DNA of 26,428 bases from a virus, in the IMG/VR virus record IMGVR_UViG_3300035179_000508, positions 1 to 26,428 of that record; one strand, written 5' to 3'. How positions within the stretch are numbered: position 1 is the stretch's first letter; each line of letters opens with the position of its first letter. The position numbers and the translations under genes are program-made. The notes beneath the pieces are model-generated. The model worked only from the letters and a program-made list of their open reading frames with translations, ran no database searches and had not been told where the DNA came from. Below are positions 1 to 26,370 of the stretch, piece by piece.

Positions 1-54
1 CGCTAATTCGACTTTTTGCATATGATTGACTATTAAGCGATCTTGGTAAAAAAG

Positions 55-127
55 TGGGCCCGAAGGGATTCGAACCCTCGATTTTCGCCTTGTAAAGGCG
101 ACGTCATAACCGCTAGACCACGGGCCC
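55..127 (-). tRNA. tRNA-Val (anticodon TAC), host gene restored at attL
   Basis: Read on the minus strand, 73 bases fold as a complete tRNA. The acceptor stem GGGCCCG (127-121) pairs perfectly with CGGGCCC (62-56), followed by an A discriminator at 55. The anticodon stem TCGCC/GGCGA encloses loop TTTACAA, so the anticodon is TAC (Val, codon GTA). The T arm has GAGGG, loop TTCGAAT and CCCTT. No CCA is encoded, as is common in archaea. A T-run follows the 3' end (complement of 47-54) and may terminate transcription. The 5' half (89-127) is the attachment core shared with the right end; the 3' half belongs to the host side. Confidence 0.93.
89..127. repeat. attL core (39-base direct repeat)
   Basis: Identical to 26302-26340 base for base; the match stops at 88 (c versus t) and 128 (g versus a). 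It covers the tRNA-Val from the 5' end through the anticodon loop. Tyrosine recombinases commonly cross over in the anticodon loop, here near 89-97. The identity block extends toward the 5' end of the tRNA rather than the more usual 3' end. Confidence 0.9.
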
Positions 128-144
128 GAGTAGACTCTGTTCCT

Positions 145-157
145 AGTTTTAAAAACA
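145..157 (-). promoter_or_regulatory. TATA box for tRNA-Val, supplied by the virus
   Basis: The minus strand reads GTTTTTAAAACTA across this stretch, an archaeal TATA-like element centred about 24 bases upstream of the tRNA 5' end at 127. That is the right distance for tRNA transcription. It lies on the viral side of the 39-base core, so the virus replaces the host promoter lost on integration. The equivalent host element sits at 26361-26370. Confidence 0.6.
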
Positions 158-13201: not shown

Positions 13202-14688
13202 TGGCACCGATTTTTAAAAAAATACTCCTCGACGGGGATGTAACCAGTGGCGATACTCGTGGATGCACGATAGTCGTGGCCGCGAGCAACTCGATAGACC
13301 CCACGCTCGCACCAGCGGCTTATCGTTGCGATGGCACCGACGATCAGGTTGAGATAAATGCCGCCATCACAGTTTTGGGCGCGACTGGTGGAACTGTCAT
13401 GCTCCTCGAGGGCCAGTACAACATAACGGCTTCGATAAACCTAGCCACGCTTACGACTCTAATGGGGCAGGGCGCGGGGACAGTGCTCAGAATACCGAAT
13501 GGGTTCGACGCCGACCTGAACGTGATCTCCGCCGTGAGTGTGAACCGCGTCATCGTGGCTGACCTGAGAGTAGACGGGAACTTGGCGAACCAGACCGCAG
13601 GAAATATGAACGGGATATACTTCGAGACTGTCACTTACTCCACGATAGCGCGGTGCTGGGCTGAGAACCTTTACGTTGACGGATATGCGGGCATCTACCT
13701 CGTCACCTCCAGCAACAACACCATCATGGGCAACAACTGCCAGGACAACGACTACGCCGGTATCTTCCTCTCTGTCTCCAGCAACAACAACACTATCACG
13801 GGGAACAACTGCCAGTCCAACGACACAGGCATCATACTCACCACCTCCAGCAACAACAACACTATCACGGGGAACAACTGCCAGTCCAACGACACCGATG
13901 GCATCAACATAACCAGTACCAGCAACAACAACACTATCACGGGGAACAACTGCCAGTCCAACGGACGGCACGGCATCCAGCTCAACGCCTCCAGCAACAA
14001 CACTATCACGGGGAACAACTGCCAGTCCAACGGACAGTACGGCATCTACCTCCGCGTATCCAGCAACAACAACACGATCACGGGCAACACCATCCAGTCC
14101 AATGTCAGAGCGGGTGTTATGCTTAGTGTATCCAACAACAACATCATCACGGGCAACACCATCCAGTCCAACGGGTGGTGGGGCATCGACTCCACTGGCT
14201 CTGATAACAACACCATCATGGGCAACACCGTGGTCGGGAATTCTCAGACCACCGACAATACGTACGACGGCATTCTAATTGATGGAAGCTCGAACTACAA
14301 CAGCGTGCAGGGGAACACGGTCAGGCACGCAGGGGGGGCGAACCAGCACAAGTACGGCATCTACATAAACATCAATACCTGTAACGGAACCCTCGTGATC
14401 AACAACGACCTCTACCTGTCGGGCAGGACGGCAAACCTCAGCGACGCGGGGACGGGGACGATAGTAAGAAGCAACAGGGGCTGGGCCACCGAGAACAGCG
14501 GGACGCGCACGGGCACAGGGGCACAGGAAACCATTCCCCATGGCCTGAACGTAATACCTAACCGCGTCCAGCTGACGGATTTAGAAGTGGGGGCGTCTCC
14601 TTACCAGTCCGCAGCACCGGACGCGACCAACATTTACACCACCGCAGTGCTGAATCAGGACTATTTATGGAAGGCCTGGAAAGTGTAA
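13198..14688 (+). CDS. Right-handed beta-helix spike protein (NosD/pectate-lyase-like)
   Basis: 496 residues; start ATG 13198, with ATG 13201 next. Residues about 40-110 match the N-terminus of pectate-lyase-type proteins (RCDGTDDQVEINAAI, then GGTVMLLEGQYNI, then LMGQGAGTVL). Residues about 130-390 are parallel beta-helix rungs; at least eight are tandem copies of SSNNNTITGNNCQSN of 22-24 residues. The C-terminus (GTGAQETIPHGLNVIPNRV) looks like a fibre-tip or trimerisation domain. In viruses such proteins bind or degrade surface glycans. No catalytic residues can be assigned. Repeats at DNA level make length change by slippage likely. Confidence 0.85.
   Translation: MMAPIFKKILLDGDVTSGDTRGCTIVVAASNSIDPTLAPAAYRCDGTDDQVEINAAITVLGATGGTVMLLEGQYNITASINLATLTTLMGQGAGTVLRIPNGFDADLNVISAVSVNRVIVADLRVDGNLANQTAGNMNGIYFETVTYSTIARCWAENLYVDGYAGIYLVTSSNNTIMGNNCQDNDYAGIFLSVSSNNNTITGNNCQSNDTGIILTTSSNNNTITGNNCQSNDTDGINITSTSNNNTITGNNCQSNGRHGIQLNASSNNTITGNNCQSNGQYGIYLRVSSNNNTITGNTIQSNVRAGVMLSVSNNNIITGNTIQSNGWWGIDSTGSDNNTIMGNTVVGNSQTTDNTYDGILIDGSSNYNSVQGNTVRHAGGANQHKYGIYININTCNGTLVINNDLYLSGRTANLSDAGTGTIVRSNRGWATENSGTRTGTGAQETIPHGLNVIPNRVQLTDLEVGASPYQSAAPDATNIYTTAVLNQDYLWKAWKV
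13707..14243 (+). repeat. Tandem coding repeats of about 66-72 bases in the spike gene
   Basis: About eight copies. The core AACACTATCACGGGGAACAA plus CTGCCAGTCCAACG is almost identical in four or five central copies and decays toward both ends. Near-identity at DNA level shows recent expansion or conversion rather than only protein-level constraint. Confidence 0.85.
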
Positions 14689-24878: not shown

Positions 24879-25029
24879 AAGCCGCGCCACTGAGATTGTC
24901 TGTATTCTCCATGTTCTCATTTCTTTTATTCCATTCCTCATTCTTGATATATGCGACAATGATATTGACAACAATCAAGATAGCGATTACCGCTAGTACG
25001 ACGCGAACATTATGACTTAGTGGTTGCAT
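24802..25029 (-). CDS. Small membrane protein, antisense to the hub gene end
   Basis: 75 residues, start ATG at 25029 with GGAAGAAG just before it (minus strand). A membrane helix covers residues 9-27 (VVLAVIAILIVVNIIVAYI); the rest is polar. The start overlaps the integrase stop by 13 bases, so it is likely cotranscribed with the integrase. Its 3' part runs 77 bases antisense into the hub gene. Function unknown. Confidence 0.5.
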   Translation of the reverse strand: MQPLSHNVRVVLAVIAILIVVNIIVAYIKNEEWNKRNENMENTDNLSGAAFMPSQAIAVSLRTVAQLPISDYSII

Positions 25030-25946
25030 GTTACTTCTTCCTTCCCCAAAACTTTCAACCCCGCTTTGCCATATATCTCCTTTAATCTTTCCGGCGAGTA
25101 GTCAGTGTAGTGCTTCCCGAGCACACTCCTCGGGATCCTGCCGCAGTAGGCGTCGACATATCTGTCCTGGACGCCGAGTCGCCCGAGCTCGCAGCAGAAC
25201 CAGTCGCGGAGGACCTGCGGAGTGATTTTGAAATCGTCGGGGCTGGCCTTCCCGAACTTGCGCGTCATGACGTGCTCGTTCAGATCGAAAACGCGCTCGC
25301 TTGGGCTGGGTGATTTGGTCAAGGACAGCCTTTCGAGCGCGGCTTTCGCCTCGGAATTGAAGCATGTGGCCCACTGAAATTTTGTAGTGCCAAAATGGCG
25401 ACTCGGATAGATGATGCGGTTCTCCATGTCGATGCGCGCCCAGATCAGTTCCATGAGTTCATGTTTCCGGAGTCCGCTCGATGCGAACAGCAGGAAGGCA
25501 GTCTCGAGTTCGGGGTCGTCCAGGTTGTCGTATGTTTCTTTGAGTTGCTCGCGAGACGGGGCGATCACAACGCGGAATGGGGATTGAGGGACCTTGAAAC
25601 AATCGGCTAAATTACTGTCAAAAAATCGGCTATATAGAACGCGCAGGGCCTTGACAGTATTCATGGCACCGTTCTGATCTAGGAACTGGCGCAACTCCTC
25701 GCGGGTCGCGTCGAGGGGATGCTTGTCCAAAAACTTCAGCAAGCGTTTGACGTGCCTCATGCGCTCCACAATCGTGCGACGCTGCAAACGGTAGTCGACA
25801 TAACAAGCATGTTCGAACTCGTGGAGTATAACATCAGGGTCGAAAGGCGTGGGCGTGAGGCGCCGGGGAATCGATGACAGGATATCCTCAATCACGGCAC
25901 GCGGAACGAGCACGTATTCGGATTTTTCCATTGTGTCCAGCTCCAT
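25017..25946 (-). CDS. int: Tyrosine-recombinase integrase, archaeal type
   Basis: 309 residues from ATG 25946 (minus strand); ATG 25931 is also possible. Residues 35-115 form a SAM-like N-terminal domain; the catalytic domain follows. Box I is SSGLRKHELMEL (R160), with a likely catalytic Lys in TTKFQ (K189). Box II ITPQVLRDWF keeps R247 but has Gln where many members have His or Lys. The C-terminus CGRIPRSVLGKHYTDYSPE holds the nucleophile, Y280 or Y283. The ending resembles archaeal virus and plasmid integrases. It sits beside the right att site and would recombine the tRNA-Val 5' half. A divergent zinc-ribbon gene shares its upstream region. Confidence 0.92.
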   Translation of the reverse strand: MELDTMEKSEYVLVPRAVIEDILSSIPRRLTPTPFDPDVILHEFEHACYVDYRLQRRTIVERMRHVKRLLKFLDKHPLDATREELRQFLDQNGAMNTVKALRVLYSRFFDSNLADCFKVPQSPFRVVIAPSREQLKETYDNLDDPELETAFLLFASSGLRKHELMELIWARIDMENRIIYPSRHFGTTKFQWATCFNSEAKAALERLSLTKSPSPSERVFDLNEHVMTRKFGKASPDDFKITPQVLRDWFCCELGRLGVQDRYVDAYCGRIPRSVLGKHYTDYSPERLKEIYGKAGLKVLGKEEVTCNH

Positions 25947-26199: not shown

Positions 26200-26248
26200 G
26201 TGTTGTTGTTATGGTTCCCGCTTCCGTTCAACTTCGCGTTCAAGGACG

Positions 26249-26265
26249 TCGCCCCGTTCGGGCGA
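26249..26265. repeat. Perfect hairpin beside the right tRNA relic
   Basis: TCGCCC-CGTTC-GGGCGA, six base pairs and a five-base loop, two bases beyond the 3' end of the tRNA-like sequence at 26268. No T-run follows on either strand. It could be an att-flanking structure; a chance GC-rich repeat is possible. Confidence 0.4.
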
Positions 26266-26267
26266 GG

Positions 26268-26340
26268 TGGGGCCGCCAAGATTTGAACTCGAGGTCTTTG
26301 TCTTGTAAAGGCGACGTCATAACCGCTAGACCACGGGCCC
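26268..26340 (-). pseudogene. Chimeric tRNA-Val relic at attR
   Basis: A full 73-base tRNA-like sequence on the minus strand with the same TAC anticodon. The 5' half equals the left tRNA, but the 3' half is diverged and viral. The anticodon stem TCGCC/GACAA has two C-A mismatches, and acceptor GGGCCCG/CGGCCCC one C-C mismatch, while the T stem still pairs. The viral 3' half would pair perfectly with a different 5' half (TTGTC and GGGGCCG), so it comes from another tRNA-Val. Probably not a functional tRNA. Confidence 0.8.
26302..26340. repeat. attR core (39-base direct repeat)
   Basis: Exact copy of 89-127. Left of it lies viral DNA (diverged tRNA 3' half), right of it host DNA with the original tRNA promoter. 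Confidence 0.9.
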
Positions 26341-26360: not shown

Positions 26361-26370
26361 GAATAAAAGC
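26361..26370 (-). promoter_or_regulatory. Original host tRNA-Val promoter, now driving the relic
   Basis: The minus strand reads GCTTTTATTC, TATA-like, centred about 25 bases upstream of the tRNA 5' end at 26340, the same distance as the viral element at 145-157. It lies outside the element, so it is the host promoter stranded by integration. Confidence 0.5.

Follow-up and report, generated by a model that had tools for sequence, protein, structure and literature searches.

Organization of the element and its two tRNA copies

We analyzed a virus record of 26,428 bases, and by the window we mean the whole of this stretch. It encodes a tailed-virus gene set with terminase, portal, major head protein and primase, among others, and the terminase compares at ∼49% with those of the methanogen viruses psiM100 and psiM2. 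The element is probably a tailed-virus provirus whose terminase is kin to those of methanogen viruses. Repeats of 69 to 72 bp lie within the gene for a viral NosD/beta-helix protein (13690-14227). The features that bear on integration are the following.

54-127, minus strand: attL, an intact tRNA-Val(TAC) (ARAGORN; Rfam tRNA 70.9 bits; fold z -2.88)
89-127, minus strand: left copy of the 39-bp core, tRNA positions 39 to 1, an exact repeat of 26302-26340
147-155, minus strand: TATA-like TTTTTAAAA, -28 to -20 from the left tRNA, viral side
25017-25946, minus strand: tyrosine integrase (PF16795, 2.4e-08; PF00589, 1.1e-06; PHROG integrase families)
26245-26253, plus strand: GACGTCGCC, repeating tRNA positions 23-31 in inverted orientation, in the viral arm next to the 3' half
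26268-26301, minus strand: viral 3' half, covering tRNA positions 40-73 and nearest to tRNA-Pro in most comparisons
26268-26340, minus strand: right tRNA copy (attR), called tRNA-Val(TAC) at 26266-26340 by ARAGORN; Rfam tRNA 44.0 bits
26302-26340, minus strand: right copy of the 39-bp core, 5' half of the host tRNA-Val, an exact repeat of 89-127
26362-26368, minus strand: TATA-like TTTTATT, -28 to -22 from the right copy, host side

By its gene limits the left tRNA occupies 55-127, the ARAGORN call being 54-127. It consists of the common 5' half and the host 3' half, with viral DNA upstream and host DNA downstream, and the right copy is flanked the other way, by host DNA upstream and viral DNA downstream. 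The core runs from the anticodon loop to the first base of the tRNA, and the two copies diverge immediately on either side of it. ARAGORN, Rfam and the 39-bp identity all bear out the earlier note, made from the sequence alone, in its description of the right copy as the 5' half of the intact tRNA-Val(TAC) joined to a viral 3' half. The gathering score of the Rfam tRNA model is 29, and the model flags the broken pairs of the right copy. These are C28-A42, C30-A40 and C4-C69, the two C-A and one C-C mismatches previously listed, and the T stem, which had been described as kept, does close, including two G-U-type pairs (T49-G65 and G51-T63).

When the same 5' half was joined to shuffled 3' halves, ARAGORN reported a tRNA-Val in 0 of 2000 cases, and random window segments used as 3' halves gave one in 2000. 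The viral 3' half is tRNA-like beyond chance. The left copy has a predicted fold of -32.1 kcal/mol (z -2.88), better than shuffles, and the right copy one of -18.6 kcal/mol (z 0.23), no better than shuffles, so that no tRNA fold is predicted for the latter. ARAGORN sees no third tRNA in the window.

The virus integrates in the 5' half of a tRNA-Val gene

As in the tRNA-gene islands described for Islander (PMC4383910), an intact tRNA stands at one end of the element and a displaced fragment at the other, in the same orientation and with the integrase gene between them. The signature is of the 5'-fragment type, in that the common block reaches tRNA position 1 in both copies and the displaced 5' half lies upstream. 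The virus thus integrates in the 5' half of the tRNA-Val gene. This orientation is rare, and the Islander account gives a 5' fragment for 159 of 3919 islands (PMC4383910).

The integrase open frame is whole, adjoins the right tRNA copy and does not overlap the att core. The enzyme would insert the element in the 5' half of the host tRNA-Val(TAC), with strand exchange most likely within the anticodon loop. This is where IntSSV1 is described as exchanging strands (PMC8371274), and exchange at that place would mean that the virus supplies the 5' half of the tRNA, and with it a TATA element. TATA-like boxes stand equally far from both tRNA copies. The host-side TTTTATT is presumably the original promoter of the tRNA and remains with the right copy, so the left copy would have to be driven by the virus, and the position of the viral TTTTTAAAA is suggestive of that role; since all-A/T runs of at least 8 occur in 2.9% of the 16-nt segments of the element, the TATA reading is suggestive and not proof. 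A working left copy would have its 5' half held identical by selection. The viral 3' half, placed behind the old host promoter, would contribute to no useful tRNA and be free to decay. GACGTCGCC occurs at three sites in the window, two of them within the tRNA copies (one at 26310-26318), and the site at 26245-26253 is a possible integrase arm or binding site.

The viral 3' half is most similar to tRNA-Pro in most comparisons

The earlier note had assigned the viral 3' half to a different tRNA-Val. The 3'-half query with its viral flank was window 26238-26302. In the phylum of G002, a Methanomassiliicoccus MAG, where 389 genomes were searched with the 3' half alone, there were 32 places in 26 genomes at E <= 1e-4, and all 30 of the loci read among these places are tRNA-Pro, with a best match of 26/27 bases. 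Four of these loci carry an intron and are labeled Leu(caa) by ARAGORN; from the 5' end GGGGCCGTGGGGTAGC and the anticodon arm we read them as tRNA-Pro(CGG). In the phylum of G409, a Methanocellaceae MAG, 88 of 383 genomes had matches, and the 30 loci read were tRNA-Pro in 29 cases and tRNA-Phe in one, which brings the count for both phyla to 59/60 tRNA-Pro and 1/60 tRNA-Phe. The acceptor strand of the matching tRNA-Pro genes is GGGGCCG in most and GGGCCCG in others; GGGGCCG is not confined to them, being present in some tRNA-Phe and tRNA-Ile as well.

Over 35 nt, the smallest edit distance to any tRNA in the fetched loci is 4 for Pro, 7 for Phe and 8 for Val, and stricter anchoring gives 5, 8 and 9, respectively. 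For positions 49-73 the viral half agrees with tRNA-Pro at 23/25 bases and with the tRNA-Val of G042 and G231 at 19/25 at most; tRNA-Val(GAC) of L094 reaches 22/25 (manual count). Taken together, these comparisons point to a tRNA-Pro gene as the most likely source of the 3' half.

A control meant to avoid a panel picked for its similarity comprised 193 tRNAs from five genomes (37, 43, 39, 37 and 37), three of which had not been picked via the 3' half. The nearest type is Pro in G042 (6 edits; Val 10), G231 (6 edits; Val 9) and G002 (7 edits; Val 10), while in G409 Pro, Arg and Gly are tied at 10 edits (Val 12), and in G001 (Poseidoniales) the nearest type is Val at 9 edits, with Pro at 10. Pro is therefore nearest in four of the five complete tRNA sets, one of them a tie, and Val in one, and because the nearest type differs among the sets, the assignment to Pro is lineage-dependent. 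Assigning 3' halves across G042 and G231 by nearest type gave the right answer for 36/37, and after eight random substitutions still did so in 1004 of 1110 trials.

Alternative origins of the 3' half

The main rival is that an ordinary tRNA-Val 3' half drifted in the virus without selection, which we consider unlikely. Positions 40-48, ACAAAGACC, differ from GCGAAGATC in the tRNA-Val(TAC) of G231 by three transitions and no indel, the variable loop has the length found in Val, and two G-to-A changes explain both C-A mismatches. Drift is likewise consistent with the predicted failure of the right copy to fold, and tRNA-Val is the nearest type in G001. Positions 40-48 and the 5-nt variable loop fit tRNA-Pro about equally, but need an insertion; since this segment can be read as Val or Pro, the two origins may meet either at 39/40 or in the vicinity of 48/49. 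Against drift stand the T arm and the acceptor strand, which are nearer to tRNA-Pro at the values given above, although the tRNA-Val of L094 comes close. In a drift simulation on sampled tRNA-Val halves with 4 to 12 substitutions, none of 2000 ended at least 4 edits closer to Pro, and 61 of 2000 were closer to Pro by any margin, in a test that leans towards Pro because the Pro panel was gathered by closeness to the viral half.

Origin from some other tRNA, such as a tRNA-Phe or tRNA-Ile with a GGGGCCG acceptor strand, is less probable still. The single tRNA-Phe among the 30 loci read in the G409 phylum does have this strand and a 5-nt variable loop, at 7 edits, and further 25-nt matches in that phylum, beyond the loci read, may be of the same kind; tRNA-Pro is closer, however, at 4 edits, and accounts for 59 of the 60 loci read.

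The least probable origin is the one proposed in the earlier note, namely the tRNA-Val of a former host with acceptor strand GGGGCCG and anticodon stem TTGTC, and we rejected it: such strands would pair perfectly and the 3' half is clearly tRNA-like, but no match was found and tRNA-Pro fits better, its acceptor strand included. A degenerate tRNA-Val(TAC) pattern, which fixes one form of the D loop, retrieved 32 loci from all genome_contigs, and the viral GACAA strand was present in 0/32. The whole right tRNA matched 23 of the 389 genomes of the G002 phylum at E <= 1e-14 (best 85%), and there was no tRNA-Val with the viral 3' half among these best matches; with up to 3 mismatches allowed (substitutions only), the same 389 genomes gave no hit to a slightly degenerate version of the viral 3' half. 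The archaeal tRNA-Val combining this 3' half with TTGTC and GGGGCCG was accordingly found in none of the scans made. What stood of the proposal is that the 3' half is foreign to the present tRNA-Val and suits the 5' half of another tRNA; its identity as tRNA-Val and its attribution to another host found no support, and the predicted GGGGCCG strand is that of most of the matching tRNA-Pro genes. A change from one tRNA type to another inside a single host therefore suffices as an explanation, and no change of host is needed. No former host can be inferred from the hybrid.

In four Aenigmatarchaeota loci (L048, L053, L065 and L071) the tRNA-Val reads as though interrupted in the D loop, consistent with an intron; default-mode ARAGORN reports no tRNA there.

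A proposed switch of target from tRNA-Pro to tRNA-Val

Our preferred reading, to which we give a probability of roughly 0.6, is that of a provirus in the 5' half of a host tRNA-Val(TAC) whose viral 3' half is a tRNA-Pro remnant, left by a switch of target and since decayed. The attachment site would once have been tRNA-Pro sequence, and its 5' half would later have become that of tRNA-Val, by a change of target tRNA that does not need a change of host. We more tentatively propose, as something short of an even chance, that the site is a half-by-half mosaic in which the switch from Pro to Val replaced only the half upstream of the anticodon loop and left the old half as a fossil.

A possible route is offered by genomes in which the two genes are neighbors. 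In G231, G350 and G353, all of the G002 phylum, tRNA-Val(TAC) immediately precedes a tRNA-Pro of the same orientation; the tandem tRNA-Val(TAC)/tRNA-Pro loci of three archaeal genomes are L082, L083 and L130, the tRNA-Pro(CGG) of the first two having an intron. Recombination between the anticodon loops of such a pair could give the order Val 5' half, Pro 3' half. The flanks of the viral site are, by eye, unlike those of G231, G350 and G353, and we thus take the tandem arrangement as a route and not as evidence of descent.

Relatives of the virus and its host

The exact core was present in no genome_contigs or viral_contigs record, in a scan from which the window's own record was possibly excluded. 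In Poseidoniales 38 of the 39 core bases are identical (manual count), and the tRNA-Val core is too conserved for this to name the host. The upstream host sequence had no match, by eye, in the fetched tRNA-Val neighborhoods.

Among viral contigs we found no relatives of the att site or the tail protein, and among viral contigs and phages none of the integrase; nor did we find a related virus whose attachment site is of the Pro type. Against the 389 genomes of the G002 phylum the integrase has three distant relatives (23-31%). One of them, in L073 (1159-2037), is 30% identical, and at its start stands what looks by eye like a tRNA-Leu 3' half in reverse complement, in the manner of split-gene (SSV-type) integrases; those of L074 and L075 are, by eye, Xer-like. 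Of the virus relatives found, L003 is the nearest, with 11 of 22 proteins in common, but its integrase differs, being Xer-like by eye and near the end of the record (L402, 424-1263), and no tRNA was found in L003. The integration module appears to have been exchanged between these relatives.

Comparison with known integration systems

A close parallel is with the pTN3-like integrases of Thermococcales, to which a review ascribes a 5'-half site unique to them in archaea (PMC8371274). As described in the sources, these elements and ours have in common a tRNA gene whose 5' half serves as attB, the rebuilding of a complete tRNA severed from its original promoter, and ∼40 bp of identity that include the anticodon (PMC8371274, PMC5495485). 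As for the further pTN3-like trait, expression of the rebuilt tRNA from element DNA, what the sequence shows is a TATA-like box on the viral side, at -28 to -20. The pTN3 att site, however, is described as part of the integrase gene itself, and integration disrupts that gene, whereas here the gene is whole at 25017-25946 and ∼350 bp away from the core at 26302-26340. CalSub-E1 of Ca. Caldiarchaeum subterraneum, apparently at the 5'-distal part of a tRNA gene (PMC6563490), is a further archaeal case of the 5' type besides the pTN3-like integrases; it differs in using a tRNA-Ser, and in the section consulted no hybrid between tRNA types is mentioned (PMC6563490).

Unlike the fragments of Islander islands, the displaced copy here still resembles a full tRNA. 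Islander is described as rejecting matches inside a full-length tRNA (PMC4383910) and would therefore probably miss the present case. tRNA-dependent lysogeny (PMC10865867) resembles the present case in that the viral tyrosine integrase has a tRNA gene as its target and the supply of that tRNA must continue. That account describes a core of ∼10 bp and a tRNA that is not rebuilt, its loss being complemented by a separately encoded phage tRNA (PMC10865867), in contrast to the present element, in which the tRNA is rebuilt, the left copy is intact and the window holds no additional tRNA. That archaeal integrases change their target between tRNA genes is in print (PMC8371274); in listings and the openings of abstracts we found no recognizable report of an att site that combines two tRNA types in one hybrid.

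Implications

Moves of integrases between tRNA genes have so far mostly been inferred from comparisons of families. If our reading is true, half of an old target lying beside half of a new one would be a direct trace of a target switch, and the half that becomes dispensable once the element has integrated can act as a fossil. The element adds to the archaeal 5'-half cases one with an undamaged integrase gene, and to the known ends of integrated elements a tRNA-like one of the kind that fragment-based island finders reject. The hybrid may record a change in the landing site of the virus rather than a change of host.
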